A stretch of DNA of 64,000 nucleotides, from assembly GCF_030644365.1 (NCBI RefSeq), contig NZ_CP130058.1, forward strand, positions 1,364,001 through 1,428,000. The letters run 5' to 3'. Positions 1-8,997 of the stretch are shown here, piece after piece (positions within the stretch are counted from its first letter, which is position 1; each line of letters starts with the position of its first letter). The notes beneath the pieces were generated by a model, which was not told the origin of the DNA, did not search any database, and worked only from the letters and a program-made list of their open reading frames with translations. Both the position numbers and the translations under genes were made by a program. The stretch is from Schaalia sp. HMT-172. GTDB lineage: Bacteria; Actinomycetota; Actinomycetes; Actinomycetales; Actinomycetaceae.

Positions 1-1806
1 GATGCGGCGCTTGCCCGACAGGTACTGTCCGGTCAGCGACTTGCGGTTCTCAAGCAGCTCGGCCAGCGGACCCGAGTGGACGACCCACCCGCCGGTTTCG
101 CCAGCACCGGGGCCGATATCGACGATCCAGTCGGCCTCTTCCATCGTCTCCTCGTCGTGCTCGACGACGATGAGCGTGTTGCCCAGATCCCGCAGGCGCT
201 CCAGGGTCGCGATGAGCTTGCGGTTGTCGCGCTGGTGCAGGCCGATCGAGGGTTCGTCGAGGACGTACAGGACGCCGACGAGGCCGGAGCCGATCTGTGT
301 GGCCAGCCGGATACGCTGTGCCTCGCCGCCCGACAGCGTTCCAGCGCCGCGCGAGAGCGTCAGGTAGGTGAGCCCGACGTCCACGAGGAAGGCCAGGCGG
401 GCCTCGATCTCGGTGAGGATCGGCTCGGCGATCGAACGTGCGCGCTGCTCGAGCTCCACTGTCGCGAGGAATTCGCGCGCCTCCGAGATCGACATGTTGG
501 AAAGCTCGGCGATCGACTTGTCCCCGATGTGCACGGCGAGAACCTCAGGCTTGAGGCGCGCACCGTGGCACGTCGGGCACGGAATCTCGCGCATGTAGGA
601 GTCGAGCTTCTCGGACACGGCGGCCGACTCGGTCTCCTCACGCTTGCGCTCGATGTAGTTGACCGCACCCTCAAATCCCGTCGTGTAGGAGCGCTCGCGC
701 CCCCAGCGGTTGCGGAACTTGACGGTGACCTCGTAATCCTTGCCGTACAGGACGGCGTCCTTGACCTTCTTCGGCAGGTTCTTCCACGGCGTGCCCATCG
801 CGAAGCCCAGCTCCTTGGACAGGGATTCGAGGAGCTTCTTGTGGTACTTGAAGTTCGAGTTCCAGGGGATCACCGCTCCGTCGGCGAGGGAGAGTTCCTC
901 GTCGGGGACGACCAGCTCGGGATCGACCTCGAGGCGGAAGCCCAGGCCCGAGCAGTCCGGACAGGCACCGTAGGGGGCGTTGAAGGAGAAAGTGCGCGGC
1001 TCGATCTCGTCGAGCAGCAGCGGGTGATCGTTGGGGCATGCGCGCTTCTCGGAGAAGCGGCGGCGGCGCTCAGGATCGTCCTCGTCCAGATCCACGCAGT
1101 CGATGACGACCAGGCCGTCGGAGAGACGCAGCGCGGTCTCGACGGAGTCGGTCAGGCGCTGGCGCATCCCGTCGCGCACGACGAGGCGGTCGACAACGAC
1201 CTCGATGGTGTGCTTGAGCTTTTTCTCCAGCTTGGGGGCATTTTCAAGGCGCACCATCTCACCGTCGATGATCGCGCGGGTGTAGCCCTCCGAACGAAGC
1301 TCGTCGATGAGGTCCTGGTACTCGCCCTTGCGTCCGCGCACGACCGGGGAGAGGACCTGGAAGCGCGTGCCCTCGTCCATCGTGCGCACGCGATCGACGA
1401 TCTGCTGGGGCGTCTGCGCCTGGATGCGGGCCCCGCACTCGGGGCAGTGCGCGACGCCGGCGCGGGCGTAGAGCAGACGCAGGTAGTCGTGGATCTCCGT
1501 GATCGTGCCGACGGTCGAGCGCGGGTTGCGCGAGGTGGACTTCTGGTCGATGGAAACAGCGGGTGACAGGCCTTCGATAAAGTCCACGTCGGGCTTGTCC
1601 ATCTGGCCGAGGAACTGGCGCGCGTAGGAGGAGAGCGATTCCACGTAACGGCGCTGTCCCTCGGCGAAAATCGTGTCGAAAGCGAGGGATGATTTACCGG
1701 ATCCGGACAGGCCGGTGAAGACGATCATGGAGTCGCGGGGCAGCTCGAGGTTCACGTCCTTAAGGTTGTGTTCGCGGGCGCCCTGGATGATTAGCTTGTC
1801 ATGCAC
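1..1806 (-). CDS. uvrA: UvrABC excinuclease subunit A (partial, 3' end outside window)
   Basis: This is the DNA-damage recognition ATPase of nucleotide excision repair, which loads UvrB onto lesions. The minus-strand translation opens with an ABC Walker A ([17 protein letters not shown], near residue 30) and continues with [19 protein letters not shown] and a zinc-binding CPEC module. A second CPDC cluster and the first ABC signature [19 protein letters not shown] with the [13 protein letters not shown] Walker B follow, all typical of UvrA. About 602 of the roughly 950 residues are present, and the second ATPase half lies beyond base 1. The start is GTG at 1806, because an in-frame TAG lies four codons upstream and no other start intervenes. 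There is no useful Shine-Dalgarno, but a TAGGAT element sits 6 nt upstream, so the mRNA is probably leaderless. It is divergent from the YciI-like gene. uvrB is 5 kb away and not linked. Confidence 0.96.
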
Positions 1807-1812
1807 CCTTCG

Positions 1813-1818
1813 ATCCTA
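1813..1818 (-). promoter_or_regulatory. -10 element of uvrA (leaderless start)
   Basis: On the minus strand TAGGAT is followed by 6 nt and then the GTG of uvrA. That spacing puts the transcription start on the start codon. No good -35 is visible. Confidence 0.5.
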
Positions 1819-1850
1819 TCCGCCCCCTAGGCAAAAGCGCGGATCAGGGC

Positions 1851-1856
1851 TAGTGT
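1851..1856 (+). promoter_or_regulatory. -10 element of the YciI-like gene (leaderless start)
   Basis: TAGTGT lies 7 nt before the ATG at 1864, and TAGGCA (1828-1833, four of six matches to TTGACA) lies 17 nt further upstream. This supports transcription starting at the second in-frame ATG rather than at 1858. Confidence 0.5.
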
Positions 1857-1863
1857 TATGCGT

Positions 1864-2145
1864 ATGGCTTACTATGCAGTTGAATACGTGTACAACCCCT
1901 CGATGACGCAGACCATGGACGAGGTTCGCCCGACGCACCGCGCGTTCCTGTCCGGCCTGCTCGAGCAGGGAATCAACATTGCGTCCGGGCCACTCGTTGG
2001 CGAGATCCCCGGCGCTCTCATCCTCATCAACGCCGAAACCCAGGCTGACGTCGAGCGCATCCTCAACGAGGATCCTTTCTACGTCGCCGAGGTTATCCAG
2101 GCGCGCCTCATCCGCGAGTGGAACCCCGTCATTCGGGCGTTCTGA
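1864..2145 (+). CDS. YciI-like domain protein
   Basis: This is a small protein of 93 residues of the YCII/dimeric alpha-beta-barrel family, which is related to muconolactone isomerase. The N-terminal strand YYAVEYVYNPS is followed by RPTHRAFLSGLLEQG and a conserved SGPLVGEIPGALILI segment. It ends with the typical NEDPFYVAEVIQARLIREWNP, in which the DPF motif of the family is present. Members are single-domain cytoplasmic proteins, some are linked to dehalogenation or peroxide chemistry, and most have no assigned substrate. I cannot say more about the reaction here. An ATG at 1858 is also possible, but the -10 element 7 nt before 1864 favours the later start. It is transcribed away from uvrA and converges with the P-type ATPase gene. 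Confidence 0.85.
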   Translation: MAYYAVEYVYNPSMTQTMDEVRPTHRAFLSGLLEQGINIASGPLVGEIPGALILINAETQADVERILNEDPFYVAEVIQARLIREWNPVIRAF

Positions 2146-2159
2146 TCGCACGTCGCGAA

Positions 2160-2197
2160 CGAGGCCGGGGCCGGGTTGATACCCGACACTGGCCTCG
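2160..2197. terminator. Hairpin between convergent genes
   Basis: CGAGGCC (2160-2166) pairs with GGCCTCG (2191-2197), and an inner stem CGGGT/ACCCG lies at 172-176/181-185 of the same block. It lies between the ends of the YciI-like gene and the P-type ATPase gene. It has no T-run on either strand, so its terminator role is inferred from position. Confidence 0.4.
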
Positions 2198-2213
2198 CCT
2201 CGTATCCGCCCCC

Positions 2214-4604
2214 CTACTCCTGGATCGAGCGGGCGAATTGGCGCGCGTAGAAGATGCGCTGAGCGATCTCGATGAGGGCGGCGGCGCACGCGCCGACACA
2301 CGCGATCACGAGCCACTCGTATCCGGTGGGCGCGACCATCGAGAAGAAACCGCGCACCGGCGGCAACAGAACGCCGCCGACCGTCGCGGAGATAACGCTC
2401 ACCAGTAGGACCCACTTCCACAGCGACAGGGGTCGCGAGGTGATCACGAGCAGCCAGATGGCGCCCAGCATGAGGGACAGGATCGCGGCGGTGGACTCGC
2501 GCGCGATCGGTGGGCCATCGACGATGCCGAACGCGGTCAGCGCAGCCGCCGCCAGGATGAAGCCCGTGGGCATCGCGAGCGACAGGGTACGCCTCAGGAA
2601 TCCGGGCACGTAGCGGCGCGGGTTGGGCCACAGCGCCAGGAAAAACGCGGGGATACCGATCGTCAGCGAGTCGATGTAGCTGAACTGGCGCGGCAGGAAC
2701 GGATAGCGCCAACCGACCAGGGCGGTGACGATCACCAGCACCGCCGCGTAGGTGGTCTTCGCGAGGAACAGCGAAGACACGCGCTCCATGTTCGCGATGA
2801 TGCGTCGCCCCTCCGACAAGACCCCGGGCAGGACAGAAAACTTCGAGTCAACGAGCACGATCTGCGCGACCGCCTTCGTGGCCTGCGTACCGTTGCCCAT
2901 CGCGATACCGAGGTCGGCGTCCTTGAGCGCCAGGGCGTCGTTCACGCCGTCGCCCGTCATGGCCACGCAGTGATCGCGCGCCTGCAGGGCACCCACCATG
3001 GCCCGCTTCTGTTCGGGCGTCACGCGCCCGAACACGTCGTGACTCTCGATCGCGTTGTTGAACGCCTCCGAGGTCAGGTCCTCGGGAAGGTCGCGCGCGT
3101 CCATGAGGCGAGCGGGCGAACCGTCGGGCGCCGTCAAGCCCGCCTGGGCTGCCAGCGCGCCGACCGTCGTCGGGTTGTCGCCCGAAATGACGCGCACGTG
3201 CACGCCCTGCGAGCGGAAGTAGTCAAGAGTCTCGGCCGCGTCCTCGCGCAGGTCCTCCTCCAACGTCACGAGGGCGGCCACCGTCCGACGCGCGGGCAGC
3301 TCGTCGTCGATCACGGCCTCGTCCGCACGAACCAGCGCCACGACGCGGGACCCCTGAGTGGCAATGGCGCGCACCCGCTCCAGGAGAACCGCGTTCGTCG
3401 CCACGGCCTCGTCGATAACGAACTCGGGCGCACCCAGGATCCAAGACTCGCGTCCGGTCCCCCACGCGCTCCACTTGCGGGCCGAGGAGAAGGGAACGGA
3501 CCACTCGATACGCTCGACAGCCCCGGCCTGCTCGGCTCCATCCAGGTGCTGCCAGATCGCCTCGGCAGTGGCATTGGTACGGTCGCACGAGGCGCTCGCG
3601 AGGGCACGCATCACCTCCTCCGCGTCCCCCGAAACCACGTCGACCTCGCGCACCCGGATGCCACCCGTCGTCAGCGTGCCCGTCTTATCCAAGCACAGGC
3701 AATCGACGCGGGCCAGCACCTCGACGGCCGGAAGCTCCTGAACGAGGACGCCCCGGCGTGCCAGCGTCGCCGATCCGATCGCGAAATTCATCGACGTGAG
3801 CAACACCAGGCCCTGGGGGATCATGCCGATGACGGAGGCGACCGACAAGACGAGAGCCTCGCGCCAATCCCCGCCCGAGCCGCCGGCGATACGGTTCTGC
3901 GAGTAAAAGGTCAGCGCAACGACCGGGAGCAGCATGACGGAGACGACCTGCAGCACGCGGTTGATCGACACCTGAATCTCGGACACGGTACGGGTGAAGG
4001 CGCGCGCCTGCTCAGACAGGCCTTGCGCGTACACGCGCTCACCGACCGCCGTCGCCACCATGCGCCCCGAGCCGGCCACGACGCTCGTGCCCGCAAGCAG
4101 CTGATCGCCCTCTTTCTTCTTGACGGGACGCGATTCGCCGGTGAGCAGCGACTCGTCGATCTCGAGGCCCGCGGAGGCCAGGACCGTCCCGTCCACGCTC
4201 ACCTGATCGCCGAGCGTCAGCTCGATAACGTCGTCGAGCACGACGTCGCGAGCCGGAATGACCGACAGGGTCCCATCGCGCAGGACACTCGCCTGCGGGG
4301 CATCCACGATCGCCAGCGAATCCAAGGTGCGCTTTGCGCGCAGCTCGGAGACGATACCAATCACGGCATTGATAATCATCACGCCGCCGAAGATGCCATC
4401 GCGCAGGTCACCGAACAGCAGCACGATGATCGACGCGCCCACGATGATCGCGTTAAAGAGCGTCAGCACGTTCTCTCGAACGATCGATGCCACGGAACGC
4501 GACGTGCGGTCCTTCACGCGGTTAACCGCGCCGCGGGCGACGCGCTCCGCGACCTCTGCCGCACTCAGGCCGCGCTCGCCGAGGCTCGTCACGTCAGCGC
4601 TCAC
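2214..4604 (-). CDS. P-type (HAD-IC) cation-transporting ATPase, CtpE-like
   Basis: This integral membrane ATPase pumps cations and resembles mycobacterial CtpE, which is linked to calcium. An actuator domain with ESLLTGESRP leads to a TM4 motif IPQGLVLLTS, then the phosphorylation site LDKTGTLTTG. The ATP-binding loop carries VISGDNPTTVGALA and the hinge motif MTGDGVNDALALKDAD, and four or more C-terminal membrane helices follow. The length (about 796 aa) fits the family. The TM4 ion-site motif is PQGL where CtpE has PEGL, so a carboxylate ligand is replaced by glutamine. The chosen start is GTG 4604, which has AGGGGG a few bases upstream; ATG at 4610 or 4619 is possible. All of these overlap the end of the TerC gene, so the two are translationally coupled. 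Because the operon begins with a manganese riboswitch, Mn2+ (perhaps with Ca2+) export is the best guess for its substrate. Confidence 0.9.
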   Translation of the reverse strand: MSADVTSLGERGLSAAEVAERVARGAVNRVKDRTSRSVASIVRENVLTLFNAIIVGASIIVLLFGDLRDGIFGGVMIINAVIGIVSELRAKRTLDSLAIVDAPQASVLRDGTLSVIPARDVVLDDVIELTLGDQVSVDGTVLASAGLEIDESLLTGESRPVKKKEGDQLLAGTSVVAGSGRMVATAVGERVYAQGLSEQARAFTRTVSEIQVSINRVLQVVSVMLLPVVALTFYSQNRIAGGSGGDWREALVLSVASVIGMIPQGLVLLTSMNFAIGSATLARRGVLVQELPAVEVLARVDCLCLDKTGTLTTGGIRVREVDVVSGDAEEVMRALASASCDRTNATAEAIWQHLDGAEQAGAVERIEWSVPFSSARKWSAWGTGRESWILGAPEFVIDEAVATNAVLLERVRAIATQGSRVVALVRADEAVIDDELPARRTVAALVTLEEDLREDAAETLDYFRSQGVHVRVISGDNPTTVGALAAQAGLTAPDGSPARLMDARDLPEDLTSEAFNNAIESHDVFGRVTPEQKRAMVGALQARDHCVAMTGDGVNDALALKDADLGIAMGNGTQATKAVAQIVLVDSKFSVLPGVLSEGRRIIANMERVSSLFLAKTTYAAVLVIVTALVGWRYPFLPRQFSYIDSLTIGIPAFFLALWPNPRRYVPGFLRRTLSLAMPTGFILAAAALTAFGIVDGPPIARESTAAILSLMLGAIWLLVITSRPLSLWKWVLLVSVISATVGGVLLPPVRGFFSMVAPTGYEWLVIACVGACAAALIEIAQRIFYARQFARSIQE

Positions 4605-5592
4605 GGGCATCCCCCTCATCCATCGCGGTACGTATCAACGACGCGACAACAGTTACCGCCAGCGTCACGACGATGACGCCCAGCGATACCGACACGGAAA
4701 TGTTGGGCGCCCACTCCACACCCCGACCGCCATTGATAAACGGGAGGGTGTTGGCGTGCAGCGCCTCAAGAATCAGCTTAATACCGATAAAGCTCAGGAT
4801 GACGCCGAGGCCGTAGCCCAGGTAGACGAGCTTGCCCAGCAGCGCGTCCACGAGGAAAAACAGCTGGCGCAGACCCATCAGGGCAAACACGTTGCAGGCG
4901 AAGACCAGGAACGCCTGCTGGGTCACGCCGAAAATCGCAGGAATCGAATCAAACGCAAACATCAGGTCCGCGGAGCCCAGGGCCAGCACGACGACAAACA
5001 GGGGCGTCAGGTAGGTGTGCCCGCCGTGACGGTAGAGCATCCGGTTGCCGATGAAACCGTCGGTGATCGGCAGGACGCGCCGCACGAGGCGAATGAAGCC
5101 ATTCTCGTGGTACTCGTCGTCCGCCTCTTCGCCCCTGGCAGTCTCCCGAACTTGAGACACGGCGGTCCACAGCAGCCACGCGCCAAAAATGAAGAACACC
5201 CACGAGAATCGAGAGACCAGCGCGGCGCCGAGCAGGATGAAGACGAGGCGCAGCACCAGCGCGATGACGATGCCGAAGAGCAGCGCCTTCTGCTGGTTCT
5301 CTCGGGGCACCCGGAACGCTTTGAGGATGAGAATGAAGACGAAGAGGTTGTCGACCGACAGCGACCACTCCATCGCCCAGCCGGCGTAGAACTCCTGGGC
5401 GTACAGCCATCCGTTCGTCAGCCAGATGCCGACGCCGAAGAGGGCGGCGAGCCCCACGTAAAAGAGAGTCCATCGGGCCGCCTCAGCGGCCGTGGGTGGA
5501 TGCGGGTTGCGTGCGTGCCCGAGGAAGTCGATCACAACGAGTCCGACGGCGACGAGCGCCAGGATCCCCCACGCCCACGGGTGAATAACCAT
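4594..5592 (-). CDS. TerC family integral membrane protein (copy 2 of operon)
   Basis: This polytopic membrane protein has 332 residues and belongs to the TerC/Alx family. Members either export Mn2+ or hand metal to secreted enzymes at the membrane. The family signatures are all visible: AMEWSLSVDNLFVF, then the loop DGFIGNRMLYRHGGHTYLTP, then SADLMFAFDSIPAIFGVTQQ with the acidic membrane residues, and the C-terminal FIGIKLILEALHANTLPFI. It lies 40 nt downstream of a closely related TerC gene and is clearly a paralogue. Its ATG has GAGG 5 nt upstream. The ATPase gene begins inside its last codons. The short gap to the upstream copy and the absence of a terminator place all three genes in one transcript under the riboswitch. 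Confidence 0.93.
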   Translation of the reverse strand: MVIHPWAWGILALVAVGLVVIDFLGHARNPHPPTAAEAARWTLFYVGLAALFGVGIWLTNGWLYAQEFYAGWAMEWSLSVDNLFVFILILKAFRVPRENQQKALLFGIVIALVLRLVFILLGAALVSRFSWVFFIFGAWLLWTAVSQVRETARGEEADDEYHENGFIRLVRRVLPITDGFIGNRMLYRHGGHTYLTPLFVVVLALGSADLMFAFDSIPAIFGVTQQAFLVFACNVFALMGLRQLFFLVDALLGKLVYLGYGLGVILSFIGIKLILEALHANTLPFINGGRGVEWAPNISVSVSLGVIVVTLAVTVVASLIRTAMDEGDARER

Positions 5593-5632
5593 GAATACCT
5601 CTTAACTATTCGACCGGCGAATTTTACCGCTC

Positions 5633-6634
5633 TCAGGCGGCACTGTCGTCGCTTCCGCGCCGAACGCGAGATGCCACGAGCGAAGCTGCGACCGTGATCA
5701 CGATCGTGACCACGATGAATCCGAGCGAGAAAGCGATGGACGGCTCGGGGACCGTCGCGACCTCGTGGCCGCCGTTGATGAAGGGCAGCTCGTTGGTGTG
5801 CAACGCGTGGTTGATGAGCTTGAAGCCAATGAACCCGAGGATCGCGGCGAGGCCATAGTGCAGGAACACGATGCGGTCGAGCAGGCCGTCGATGAGGAAG
5901 TAGAGCTGGCGCAGCCCCAGCAGCGAGAACGCGTTGGCGGCGAACACGAGGTAGGCCTCGGAGGTCAGCGAGTAGATCGCGGGGATCGAATCGACGGCAA
6001 ACATGACGTCGGCCGTACCGATCGCGATGACGCACAGCAGCATCGGCGTAATGTAGGTGCGTCCGCCGTGGCGGTACAGCATGCGCGAGCCGATGAAACC
6101 ATCGGTGACGGGCACGACCTTCGACACCCAACGCACGAGCGACGGCGGGCGGTAGTCCTCGTCCTCCTCGTCGCCACCGATGCCCTCACGAACCTGACTG
6201 ATCGCGGTCCACATGAGCCACGCGCCAAAGAGGTAGAACACCCACGAGAAGTTCTCGATGAGCGCGGCGCCCGCGAGAATGAAGATAAGGCGCAGCACCA
6301 GCGCGATGACGATACCCGCTAGCAGGACCTCCTGCTGGTTCTTGCGGGGCACGCGGAAGGCCGACAGGATGATGACAAAGACGAAGAGATTGTCGATGCT
6401 GAGGGCTTTTTCGGTGATGTAGCCGCCCAGGTATTCCTGTCCGTATTGTGGCCCCCAGACTGCCCAGACGATGGCGCCGAAAATGAGGGCGATCGCAATG
6501 TAGGCGATGGACCACCAGGTCGCTTCCTTAAGCGTGGGTTCGTGGGGTGTGCGGACGTGGCCGACGATGTCGACGACGATCATGGTCAGAATAATGCCAG
6601 CCAGGATGATCCAGGCAAGGGCGTGCACGTGCAT
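5633..6634 (-). CDS. TerC family integral membrane protein (riboswitch-proximal copy)
   Basis: This is the first gene of the Mn-riboswitch operon and encodes 333 residues. It has the same layout as its downstream paralogue, with ALSIDNLFVFVIILSAFRVPR, then DGFIGSRMLYRHGGRTYITP, then TADVMFAVDSIPAIYSLTSE and FIGFKLINHALHTNELPFI. The conserved membrane aspartates of TerC metal transporters are retained. Established roles of the family are Mn2+ efflux (Alx/MntP-like physiology) or metallation of exoenzymes in Bacillus. The start is ATG 6634 with a strong GGAGG (bases 6643-6647) 8 nt upstream. That GGAGG is also one arm of a 10-bp hairpin with the 3' strand of riboswitch P1. This is direct sequence support for translational control by metal. 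Confidence 0.94.
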   Translation of the reverse strand: MHVHALAWIILAGIILTMIVVDIVGHVRTPHEPTLKEATWWSIAYIAIALIFGAIVWAVWGPQYGQEYLGGYITEKALSIDNLFVFVIILSAFRVPRKNQQEVLLAGIVIALVLRLIFILAGAALIENFSWVFYLFGAWLMWTAISQVREGIGGDEEDEDYRPPSLVRWVSKVVPVTDGFIGSRMLYRHGGRTYITPMLLCVIAIGTADVMFAVDSIPAIYSLTSEAYLVFAANAFSLLGLRQLYFLIDGLLDRIVFLHYGLAAILGFIGFKLINHALHTNELPFINGGHEVATVPEPSIAFSLGFIVVTIVITVAASLVASRVRRGSDDSAA

Positions 6635-6642
6635 ACGTGGGG

Positions 6643-6669
6643 CCTCCGGTACGAGTCGGGTACCGGAGG
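6643..6669 (-). promoter_or_regulatory. Shine-Dalgarno-sequestering hairpin (riboswitch expression platform)
   Basis: CCTCCGGTAC (6643-6652) and GTACCGGAGG (6660-6669) form a perfect 10-bp inverted repeat with a 7-nt loop. Read on the minus strand, one arm holds the GGAGG ribosome-binding site of the first TerC gene. The other arm is the 3' strand of aptamer helix P1. The two pairings exclude each other, which predicts that metal binding frees the ribosome site. Confidence 0.75.
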
Positions 6670-6773
6670 TCTCCTCCCGCCAGGAATCCTGGCCGGTGAC
6701 GCCGGAGGCCGCGCCGCGTTGGCGGGCCGTCGTGATGACGACGCCACTGTTGGTGGGAGTACTCCCCTCCGCT
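6663..6773 (-). ncRNA. yybP-ykoY manganese riboswitch aptamer
   Basis: The minus-strand leader holds the hallmarks of the yybP-ykoY Mn2+ aptamer. The 5' side is GGAGGGGAGTA (the L1 consensus), then GTCGTCA, then a CCGGCG helix region, and the L3-side GGAGACCTCCGG closes helix P1 (CGGAGG with CCTCCG). It sits directly upstream of a TerC gene, the class most often controlled by this riboswitch. The aptamer ends about 30 nt before the start codon, and its last strand can instead pair with the ribosome-binding site. A TAGGAT -10-like sequence at 6783-6788 on the minus strand is a possible promoter. Identification rests on the two conserved loops and context; a covariance-model score was not available. 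Confidence 0.85.
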
Positions 6774-6915
6774 TACACCTCTATCCTAGTCGGAAGTAGC
6801 CGATCCCAGGCGATTCATAACAAGTGGCGTCTGTCGCCTTCACGGTGTCGACCGCTCCCGATGGACGAGGCCGCAGCCGCATCCGGCGTCCGGCCGCCCC
6901 GGGCAACATGCACGA

Positions 6916-8997
6916 TCAATGGGCGCGCTTCATGGCGCGCAGTTCCTTCTTGAGATCCTCGATTTCGTCGCGTAGGCGCGCCGCGACCTCGAACTGGAGG
7001 TGCTGGGCGGCGGTCATCATCTGGGCAGACAGCTCCTCGATGAGTTCGGCGAGCTCGGCCTCCGCGCGCTGACCAGGATTCGAGACGGCAGGCGTCGCGG
7101 CCGCACCTCGGTCGCGTGCGCTCTTCTCCTTGCGATACCCGCCCTCGAGGAGGGTCTGCGTGTCGACCTGCTCGCGGGCGAGCATGTCGGTCACGTCGGA
7201 GATCTTCTTGCGCAGGGGCTGCGGGTCGATGCCGTGTTCCTTGTTGTAGGCGATCTGAATCTCGCGACGGCGCATCGTCTCGGAGATGGCCTCGTTCATC
7301 GAATCGGTCATGTTGTCCGCGTACATGTGGACCTCGCCGGACACGTTTCGTGCGGCGCGACCGATCGTCTGGATGAGCGAGCGGGTCGAGCGCAGGAAGC
7401 CTTCCTTGTCGGCGTCGAGGATGGACACGAGGGAGACCTCGGGCAGGTCCAGGCCCTCACGCAAGAGGTTGATGCCCACGAGCACGTCGAAGGTACCCAG
7501 GCGCAGTTCGCGCAGCAGCTCGACGCGGCGCAACGTGTCGACGTCGGAGTGCAGGTATTCGACCTTGACGCCGCGCTCGGCCAGGTAGGTGGTCAGTTCC
7601 TCGGCCATCTTCTTCGTGAGGGTGGTGACAAGGACGCGCTCGTCGCGTTCGACGCGCAGGCGTACCTGTTCGAGGAGGTCGTCGATCTGTCCCTCGGTGG
7701 GCTTGACGACGACGAGCGGATCGACCAGGCCCGTCGGGCGAATAATCTGCTCGACCACCCCGTCGGAGCGTTCGAGCTCGTAGGGGCCGGGCGTCGCGGA
7801 CAGGTAGACGGTTTGGCCGATGCGCGCCGTGAACTCATCCCATTTGAGCGGGCGGTTGTCCATCGCGGAGGGCAGGCGGAAGCCGTAGTCGACGAGGGTG
7901 CGCTTGCGCGACATGTCGCCCTCGAACATCGCGCCGATCTGGGGGACGGTCACGTGCGACTCGTCGATGATCAGCAGGAAGTCGTCCGGGAAGTAGTCCA
8001 GGAGGGTGTGCGGCGGCGTGCCGGGTCCGCGCCCATCGATGTGACGCGAGTAGTTTTCCACGCCCGAGCACGACCCGATTTCCTTGAGCATCTCCAGGTC
8101 GAAGGTGGTGCGCATGCGCAGGCGCTGCTCCTCGAGGAGCTTGTTCTGGCCGCGGAACCACGCGAGGCGATCGTCGAGCTCGTCCTCAATCGAAGCGATC
8201 GCCTTCTTCATGCGCTCCTCGCCGGCGACGTAGTGCGAGGCGGGGAACAGGTAGGTGTGGTCGACTTCGGAGATGACGTCGCCCGTGAGCGGGTGCAGAA
8301 CCGCGAGGGAATCAATCTCGTCGCCGAACATCTCGATGCGGATCGCGAGTTCCTCATACACGGGGATGATCTCGATCGTGTCACCGCGCACGCGGAAGGT
8401 ACCGCGCGTAAACGCCATGTCGTTGCGCACGTACTGCATGGCGACGAAGCGTCGCAGCAACGCATCGCGATCGATGATCATGCCGCGGCTCAGCTCGATC
8501 ATGCGCGCCACGTACTCCTCGGGGGTGCCGAGGCCGTAGATGCAGGACACCGAGGAGACGACGACCGTGTCACGGCGGGTGAGCAGGGAGTTCGTAGCGC
8601 TGTGACGCAGGCGCTCGACTTCGTCGTTGATCGAGGAATCCTTCTCGATGAACGTGTCCGTCTGAGGGACGTAGGCCTCGGGCTGGTAGTAGTCGTAGTA
8701 GGACACGAAGTACTCGACCGCGTTGCCCGGCAGGAGCTCGCGGAACTCGGCGGCGAGCTGCGCGGCGAGGGTCTTGTTCGGCTCGAGGACCAGCGCGGGT
8801 CGTTGCAGCTCCTCGATGAGCCAGGCGGTGGTCGCGCTCTTACCCGTACCCGTCGCACCCATGAGGACGACGTCCTGCTCGCCGTCGCGAATGCGCGCGG
8901 CCAGCTCTCGGATCGCCTTAGGCTGGTCGCCCGACGGCGTGTACGGGGAGATAACCTCGAAGGGCTTGTTCTGGCGGATGACGGGGGTTTCGCTCAC
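6916..8997 (-). CDS. uvrB: UvrABC excinuclease subunit B
   Basis: This is the helicase-fold core of nucleotide excision repair, which verifies damage and recruits UvrC. The 693-residue product starts with [17 protein letters not shown] and has Walker A ([13 protein letters not shown], about residue 45). The beta-hairpin region [20 protein letters not shown] follows. Helicase motifs include [24 protein letters not shown] and the late motifs [13 protein letters not shown] and [11 protein letters not shown]-terminal UVR coiled coil (residues about 650-690) binds UvrC. The length and domain order are normal. The start is GTG 8997, which has TAGCGT 6 nt upstream on the minus strand and no properly spaced Shine-Dalgarno, so a leaderless mRNA is likely. 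It is not linked to uvrA in this window. Confidence 0.97.

Follow-up and report, generated by a model that had tools for sequence, protein, structure and literature searches.

A P2-less leader RNA, predicted to act as a manganese riboswitch, before TerC and P-type ATPase genes in Schaalia sp. HMT-172

Results

A putative Mn2+ riboswitch before a proposed export operon

The analysed DNA, a stretch of 64,000 nucleotides (nt) from Schaalia sp. HMT-172 referred to here as the window (G000:C1:1364001-1428000), belongs to a genome consisting of a single contig of 2.53 Mb and carries on its minus strand, between uvrB and uvrA, a structured leader followed by the genes for TerC1, TerC2 and a P-type ATPase. 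We consider it likely that a manganese (Mn2+) riboswitch controls the first TerC gene of this operon, whose products would export the metal. Comparative evidence supports the leader as a putative aptamer of the yybP-ykoY type, though Rfam misses it. The predicted aptamer fold, the exclusive pairing of its strands, the gene order and the family assignments are contained in the sequence itself, and the main features of the locus are as follows.

6774-6643, minus strand: structured leader, preceding TerC1
5633..6634, minus strand: TerC1, Alx-type TerC membrane protein of 333 residues (PF03741; TIGR03718, 362.6 bits)
4594..5592, minus strand: TerC2, paralogue of TerC1, 56% identical, 332 residues (TIGR03718, 354.1 bits; a group of its own in the TerC tree)
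2214..4619, minus strand: P-type ATPase, putatively of the CtpE-like (P6) type, 801 residues, with PQGL in transmembrane helix 4 (TM4) and DSLTIG in TM6 (TIGR01494, 234 bits; alignment with SERCA2; tree)

The three open reading frames lie where an earlier note on this DNA had placed them, and the spacing given there was also confirmed, with 40 nt between TerC1 and TerC2 (5593-5632) and a 26-nt overlap of the ATPase start with the end of TerC2.

Fold of the leader RNA

The earlier note had recognised yybP-ykoY loops in the leader of the first TerC gene, and this observation was borne out by a motif search. GGGGAGTA and GAGACC, at a spacing of 60-90 nt, occurred together once in the window (6668-6767, minus strand), compared with a mean of 0.01 in shuffled sequences, and both motifs preceded terC in 38 of 40 named Actinomycetaceae-type loci (L004-L038, L042-L044, L052 and L053), L043 and L044 being the exceptions. 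The aptamer start at 6774 lies 1 nt outside the range that the earlier note had given for the operon (2214..6773).

An alignment of 39 leaders, window included (A1), was assembled and used to build a covariance model (R1), which is therefore derived from Actinomycetaceae leaders only. The structure was written on the window row, guided by the L. lactis aptamer and by the accessible text on L1 and L3 in PMC6754395, and comprises the elements P1.1, L1, P1.2, P3.1, L3, P3.2 and P4, the most relevant of which are listed here.

6660..6774, minus strand: aptamer, predicted yybP-ykoY-type Mn2+ riboswitch in a P2-less three-way junction form (R1 score, covariation, matches in alx and Xanthomonas)
6766..6771, minus strand: 5' strand of P1.1, CGGAGG, the putative switch strand x, pairing with 6669-6664
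6760..6765, minus strand: L1, GGAGUA, with its partner GAGA at 6673-6670 (invariant columns of A1)
6732..6738, minus strand: L3, a 7-nt bulge UCAUCAC with the predicted Mn2+-sensing adenine at 6736 (invariant in 39/39 rows)

In A1, 93.1% of 1089 cells were paired versus 88.3% in shuffles and both sides had changed in 12 of 29 pairs versus 6.8 in shuffles, none of 500 shuffles being as high; slid versions of the structure paired 42.7-57.1% of cells. These figures carry the caution that related rows can beat shuffles and that slid versions usually score lower than the original when a structure has been drawn on a single row. The L1 consensus GGGGAGUA / GAGACC was present between P1.1 (97.4% of cells paired) and P1.2 (96.8%), and P4 was the weakest helix (78.3%). 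R1, whose 39 training rows include the window site, scored this site at 123.4 bits and gave no other match at E ≤ 10, either within the window or across the whole window genome, indicating a single copy. As for L3, the sequences given in the accessible text of PMC6754395 are ACAUACU for X. oryzae and UCAAUUC for L. lactis, their third base being the Mn2+-sensing adenine; the window L3 matches the yybP-ykoY crystal structures described there in its length of 7 nt and in the sensing A.

Assignment to the yybP-ykoY class

Several results weigh against placing the leader in this class. The comparison with Rfam RF00080 that the earlier note had proposed returned no match at the gathering cut-off, nor any at E ≤ 10 within 6500-6950; a search of the whole genome with the same model found nothing at the leader position, and no match over the cut-off was obtained in any of 151 Actinomycetaceae genomes. 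The P2 helix, which in our reading belongs to the Rfam model, is absent, P1.2 and P3.1 being joined in A1 by just 6-8 nt, and the E. coli mntP leader is missed by R1. In addition, Rfam at gathering gave no family in 12 related loci (one Xanthomonas among them), and weaker RF00080 matches were present in 3 of the 151 genomes, none of them where R1 places an RNA.

However, RF00080 (Rfam 15) scores the E. coli mntP leader at 41.6 bits, below its cut-off of 45, and the E. coli alx leader is not among its matches at E ≤ 1; for this reason the missing match, although the earlier note had named it as a refuting outcome, was not taken as a refutation. The model exceeded its cut-off in 2 of 14 control genomes, and the RF00080 test is weak for deciding the presence of this leader RNA, whose detection took a model built from leaders of the short form. 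Similarly, P2 was not treated as obligatory because, in our own reading, the same short form occurs in E. coli alx and in 20 of the 22 Xanthomonas-group terC leaders, L062 and L078 of that group bearing an insert at the P2 position. A CCAC/GUGG hairpin in the junction, considered as a possible P2, can be drawn in the window letters and was rejected, as it is lost in relatives such as L010, L015 and L017. Separately, a sub-threshold RF00080 match of 29.5 bits at G051:C1:771011-771132, where R1 reported nothing, is possibly a P2-bearing Mn2+ riboswitch.

R1 was tested on 25 loci outside its training set, namely 8 of the 22 Xanthomonas-group loci, 6 of 10 motif-bearing loci from other actinobacteria, two E. 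coli stretches and 9 motif-less loci. All six motif-bearing actinobacterial leaders searched (Actinopolyspora group, Paractinoplanes, Cellulomonas and Myceligenerans) were found with E-values of 2.7e-16 to 2.7e-10, as were all eight searched terC leaders of Xanthomonas and Pseudoxanthomonas (4.7e-09 to 4.8e-04) and the E. coli alx leader, located just 5' of its gene (E 0.0031 among 268,639 bases). The next matches in this search had E-values of 0.43 and above. The R1 alignment of alx agrees with the other leaders at L1 (GGGGAGUA), L3 (UCGUCAUUACG) and GAGACC. Moreover, a yybP-ykoY leader (RF00080 in an older Rfam) observed in RNA-seq is reported for the C. glutamicum terC gene cg2157 in the accessible text of PMC3890552, so that the pair of riboswitch and terC was already known in actinobacteria; that text names terC and makes no mention of an ATPase.

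An unrelated structured RNA, or a protein-binding site merely resembling yybP-ykoY, would explain why RF00080 has no match at the leader and none over the cut-off in the family genomes. The same model, though, also underscores E. coli mntP and omits alx at E ≤ 1, and the recovery by R1 of alx and the Xanthomonas leaders, together with the RF00080 leader of cg2157 (PMC3890552, as far as its accessible text goes), makes this alternative very improbable.

The assignment to the yybP-ykoY type is further illustrated by the features that the predicted RNA shares with RF00080: P1.1-L1-P1.2, P3.1-L3-P3.2, the 7-nt L3, the sensing A, P4 and a placement before terC, as for alx. P1.1, the switch helix of the class according to the accessible text of PMC6754395, would have this role in the window leader too. 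The window leader differs in the lost P2, in a score below the Rfam 15 limit and in having a Shine-Dalgarno sequence instead of a terminator as its target. E. coli alx has a Mn2+ riboswitch before an Alx-type TerC, as predicted here, but no second TerC or P-type ATPase occurs among its annotated neighbours, while both follow in the window.

A predicted three-strand switch at the Shine-Dalgarno sequence

The 3' strand of P1.1 could take part in two helices, as it is complementary both to strand x and to a sequence just before TerC1.

6660..6669, minus strand: strand y, containing the P1.1 3' strand CCUCCG and predicted to act also as the anti-Shine-Dalgarno strand (CCUCCGGUAC; complementarity to x and z)
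6643..6652, minus strand: strand z, GUACCGGAGG, with the Shine-Dalgarno sequence GGAGG at 6647-6643, 8 nt before the ATG (10/10 pairs with y)

Pairing of y with x and pairing of y with z are mutually exclusive. Ligand-free folding calculations returned pair probabilities of 0.98-1.0 for the y-z hairpin and a minimum free energy of -82.3 kcal/mol with the hairpin versus -71.2 kcal/mol with P1.1 and P1.2 forced. As the P1.1/P1.2 form is thus predicted to be 11 kcal/mol less stable, the difference would have to be paid by ligand energy or by folding during transcription.

Helices between y and z were found in 42/42 leaders with a minimum of 7/8 or 8/10 pairs, the best placement being chosen with no shuffle control. 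In a larger set 97 of 102 sequences could be parsed and 93 showed at least 7/9 y-z pairs under a permissive rule, also without shuffles. In L255 and L258 the strands read CCUUCGG (y), CGAAGG (x) and CCGAAGG (z), so that all three strands change together. A stricter shuffle test on 40 loci, 39 of which were scored, speaks against a general switch of this kind: the hairpin reached p ≤ 0.05 in 26 of the 39 genus-level loci and failed in 13, and, of the six loci with an ATPase 3' of TerC, L160 and L173 passed and L169, L177, L189 and L191 failed, although the permissive count takes L169, L177 and L189 as hairpins. The Shine-Dalgarno switch is therefore strong in the group of the window and not universal. 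An intrinsic terminator was rejected as the expression platform, no U-run being present after the Shine-Dalgarno hairpin and no terminator being listed by the scan.

Distribution of the RNA and of the ATPase gene

R1 matches were found in 133 of the 151 family genomes (138 places at E ≤ 0.01) and in 116 of 246 genomes of the class (E ≤ 0.001). The gene directly behind the RNA was terC in all 40 family loci read, which represent one or two loci per genus plus five second copies, and in the 11 best class-level loci read, the common frame being uvrB-RNA-terC-uvrA. Of the 40 named loci, 33 have an ATPase gene after TerC, and 13 of the 40 have both TerC genes together with the ATPase. In the genus sample the ATPase follows TerC in six loci from five genera (g1, g4, g15, g19 and g23), hence not in all genera.

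The position of the ATPase relative to the RNA was then counted for 103 of 105 matches in 101 ATPase-bearing family genomes, the second fragments in G070 and G124 being omitted. The ATPase lay 3' of the RNA on the same strand and within 8 kb in 38 of the 103, a figure that includes G033, where it is 4.9 kb off with uvrB in between. Another 9 belonged to genomes lacking an R1 match at E ≤ 0.01, one of which, G060, has a weaker match.

Two observations on individual groups were made in this survey. In L166 and L216 (g11), L213 and L214 (g27), L182 and L215 (g28) and L187 (g34) the ATPase stands 5' of the riboswitch and has no R1 match of its own. In Mobiluncus (L042, L043 and L044), the RNA is kept before terC in M. 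curtisii, the loci of M. porci and M. mulieris are without it, and none of the three has an ATPase in the stretch.

Candidate promoters and extent of the operon

Two promoter elements were considered in the window.

6783..6788, minus strand: TAGGAT, candidate -10 element of the operon promoter (TANNNT upstream of the aptamer in 13/13 aligned sequences, by eye as a consensus reading)
5621..5626, minus strand: TAAAAT, possible internal promoter element before TerC2 (scan; alignment of 10 sequences)

The promoter scan of 1700-7000 returned 2 promoter-like sites versus 0.7 expected and did not list the TAGGAT candidate. The earlier note had described TerC and ATPase genes as a single unit under the riboswitch. 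The first part of this claim stands, TerC and ATPase sharing a conserved unit of genes in the same direction, and the second, riboswitch control of TerC2 and the ATPase, is unproven, with TAAAATT before TerC2 and ATPases just upstream of the RNA in four other genera telling against it. We nevertheless lean towards a riboswitch that also controls the ATPase, by read-through. The ATPase start overlaps TerC2, and the ATPase is therefore probably translationally coupled to TerC2.

A number of findings run counter to this reading of the operon. The stretch is without an ATPase in 7 of the 40 named loci; among the 103 ATPase matches, 11 lie directly 5' of the RNA at 39-112 nt (genera g11, g27, g28 and g34) and 45 lie elsewhere in RNA-bearing genomes; G077, G108 and G141, which belong with G060 to the genomes lacking an R1 match at E ≤ 0.01, keep the order uvrB-terC-ATPase and show no R1 match at E ≤ 1. 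The element TAAAATT precedes TerC2 in the window as well as in the 6 loci closest to it, and is absent as aligned from L013, L018 and L026.

It is thus conceivable that the riboswitch drives TerC1 alone and that TerC2 and the ATPase are transcribed from an internal constitutive promoter, which would mean that they do not form one regulated unit. This agrees with the promoter-like site at 5649-5621, with the conservation of TAAAATT together with ATAGTTAAGAGGTA before TerC2 in the window and the 6 closest loci, and with the 11 ATPases upstream of the RNA. Yet L013, L018 and L026 have the same gene order without the element, the promoter matches are near chance (2 versus a mean of 0.7), the reading frames of TerC2 and the ATPase overlap, and many loci lack TerC2, the ATPase directly following TerC1, so that we regard the internal promoter as unlikely to account for the operon.

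The two TerC proteins

Both TerC1 and TerC2 exceed the cut-off of 246.4 bits of TIGR03718 (Alx), and in an alignment of seven sequences E75, D81, N82, D209 and D215 are identical in TerC1, TerC2 and E. coli Alx. A sequence search in the PDB gave no match for TerC. In a tree of 110 rows, TerC1 falls in a starred clade of 45 rows (99/95) with no TerC2 inside, and the TerC2 proteins of Actinomyces and Schaalia form together a separate group of 18 rows (93/94, just under the star), suggesting that the duplication is older than these genera. A recent or repeated duplication was considered and is not favoured by this tree. In two Cellulomonas loci the second TerC comes from another lineage.

Both copies are present in 14 of the 40 named loci. 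The single TerC of L053 falls with Actinomyces TerC2 (starred); the TerC proteins of L189 and L169 also group with TerC2, on long branches and with no star. The earlier note had proposed a division of labour between the two proteins, which is not shown by these data: the loci vary, with TerC1 alone, both copies, or TerC2 alone in L053 and less surely in L169 and L189, and the conserved acidic residues of E. coli Alx are retained in TerC1 and TerC2 alike. The conserved residues speak for a use of TerC1 and TerC2 that may be interchangeable at least in part.

In a split of functions one TerC would export Mn2+ and the other would load it into secreted enzymes. Such a split would be in line with the two B. 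subtilis TerC proteins, which metalate exoenzymes and export Mn2+ according to the accessible text of PMC10550928, and with the continued separation of the two TerC groups in the tree throughout Actinomyces and Schaalia. We consider it rather improbable in view of the many loci with TerC1 alone, of L053 (and, less surely, L169 and L189) with a copy of the TerC2 group alone, and of the identity of all five residues in both copies and Alx.

As a separate observation, five genomes, represented by L153 and L155 (g21) and L154, L156 and L157 (g22), contain a second RNA matched by R1, located before an additional TerC; in g21 this TerC is distant, at 38-45% to TerC1, and branches in the tree next to those of E. 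coli (Alx) and Xanthomonas.

The P-type ATPase and its cation site

Among the NCBIfam models listed for the ATPase, TIGR01494 (general HAD-IC P-type, 234 bits) was the only one over its cut-off. Alignment with SERCA2 showed Gln in place of the TM4 PEGL Glu, Asp in place of the TM6 Asn and Ile in place of the TM6 Asp (VTDG versus LTIG), the positions of E309, N796 and D800 in SERCA2. The change from TM6 Asp to Ile is described as a mark of CtpE, for which a family P6 is proposed, in the accessible text of PMC10654040, and is shared by CtpE (P6, family 23) and the window ATPase. On the other hand, CtpE has PEGL, Ca2+ uptake and a Ca2+-repressed operon, whereas the window ATPase has PQGL and stands in a putative Mn2+-riboswitch operon (PMC5615198 and PMC10654040, accessible text).

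PQGL was present in 60/60 terC-locus ATPases read, in sets of 34 and 26, the latter including two species of the former, two far copies and three loci without the RNA; elsewhere in the family 23 of 24 ATPases have PEGL and one, from G043, has PQGL. In a tree of 80 rows made by a quick method, the terC-locus ATPases, the G043 copy among them, make up a single starred clade of 40 rows, so that the change from Glu to Gln would be one event there; this tree leaves out 19 named terC-locus rows, the two repeats L160 and L173, 9 PEGL rows from elsewhere in the family and 10 PEGL rows from outside it. The window ATPase groups with other actinobacterial PEGL ATPases in this tree, which holds no sequence named CtpE. 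As independent evidence for a link with Mn2+, the TM4 Gln is weakened, being the signature of a single clade (fewest E/Q changes on the tree, 4) and occurring outside the family too.

Outside the family, 28 of 36 ATPases had Glu, 6 Gln and 2 Lys at the TM4 position, and R1 had no match at E ≤ 1 in 37 other stretches with such ATPases. The ATPases of L119, L121, L123, L132, L143 and L148, from other lineages and with no R1 match in the stretch, carry PQGL, which may thus be a repeated change. Related ATPases on plasmids of Enterococcus raffinosus and E. gilvus (L145 and L146) have PKGL in TM4 and a differing TM6, AIEGYP. In G043 (L238), about 105 kb of one contig separate the PQGL ATPase from the riboswitch, and the 18 kb around the ATPase contain no TerC.

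YoaB of L. lactis is a P-type ATPase. Its gene, yoaB, is given as the one behind the L. lactis riboswitch, and S. pneumoniae MgtA is described as a Mn2+/Ca2+ exporter P-type ATPase under a Mn2+ riboswitch, the arrangement proposed here for the window; the accessible text of the sources (for MgtA, PMC9331361 and PMC9936198) names no TerC beside either.

The view in the earlier note that the ATPase serves export is opposed by its one characterised relative: CtpE is reported in the accessible text of PMC5615198 as a Ca2+-specific importer whose operon is repressed by Ca2+. These properties, and the TM6 Asp-to-Ile change in common (PMC10654040, accessible text), would fit a window ATPase that imports Ca2+ as mycobacterial CtpE does, its adjacency to TerC reflecting general metal homeostasis and not Mn2+ export. 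We hold this to be improbable, because Ca2+ import induced by high Mn2+ has no evident use, the S. pneumoniae exporter provides a precedent under a Mn2+ riboswitch, and Gln is found throughout the terC-locus ATPases versus Glu in nearly all others of the family, though within one clade.

Neighbouring genes and related loci

The nearest named relative of TerC1 is on a contig titled Actinomyces bouchesdurhonensis (97% identity), followed by Schaalia odontolytica and its kin (90-92%). A YciI-domain gene (window 1858-2145, plus strand) lies between the ATPase and uvrA, convergent with the operon, and is found there also in many relatives. L006 (titled Sanguibacter keddieii 250_SKED) and L009 (Xylanimonas cellulosilytica 352_XCEL) are Schaalia-like, the proteins of six genes being 90-98% identical to those of the window, and are probably mislabelled. 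In L052 (Actinomyces ruminis) the TerC and ATPase genes were matched in several pieces, indicating broken genes or a poor assembly.

Discussion

The features described above suggest the following mechanism. At low Mn2+, strand y (CCUCCGGUAC) would pair with GUACCGGAGG, hiding the Shine-Dalgarno sequence of terC1. Mn2+ would dock L1 and L3, allowing P1.1 to form, and the Shine-Dalgarno sequence would be freed and TerC1 made, that is, a translational ON switch. The opening of TerC1 translation by Mn2+ is the best-supported step of this scheme. The message would run on through TerC2 and the CtpE-like P6 ATPase, the latter probably coupled to TerC2 by its overlapping start, and TerC1, TerC2 and the ATPase, which would use ATP, would together remove excess cytosolic Mn2+. 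The TerC proteins may also deliver Mn2+ to exported enzymes.

We infer Mn2+ as the ligand, the metal and direction of transport, and the read-through to the ATPase; for export, the accessible texts on TerC (PMC10550928, PMC13274385) and on the S. pneumoniae ATPase (PMC9331361, PMC9936198) serve as the basis. At E ≤ 0.001 the window genome has no match to PF02659 (MntP) or PF01169 (GDT1), other exporter families not having been searched, and one CDF gene, so that the operon genes may carry much of the Mn2+ export.

Neither the riboswitch class nor its terC target is new. Within the literature searched, the putative P2-less form across Actinomycetaceae that Rfam misses, the predicted three-strand Shine-Dalgarno switch and the recurrent coupling with a clade of P6-type ATPases whose cation site is altered appear to be new. 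Judged by titles and the openings of abstracts, most subscription papers being out of reach, no TerC and P-type ATPase operon under a Mn2+ riboswitch was found, and on the same basis no link between CtpE and a riboswitch, the one co-mention being by its title a base-editing paper. As a tentative extension, the terC-locus ATPases might be a distinct P6 clade that exports Mn2+, with the TM4 Glu-to-Gln change and the lost TM6 Asp marking a shift from Ca2+ to Mn2+; with one or two TerC proteins they might form a riboswitch-gated Actinomycetaceae exporter with two mechanisms, whose P2-less sensor is missed by current RNA annotation across the family.

The operon gives a genetic context to the P6 ATPases, the sole characterised member of which is puzzling as a pump said to import Ca2+, and this context makes their metal and direction of transport testable. 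The leader, in turn, offers a putative three-strand translational switch for study. Finally, as RF00080 exceeds its cut-off in none of the 151 family genomes and R1 has matches in 133, the Mn2+ regulons of the Actinomycetaceae are probably under-annotated.

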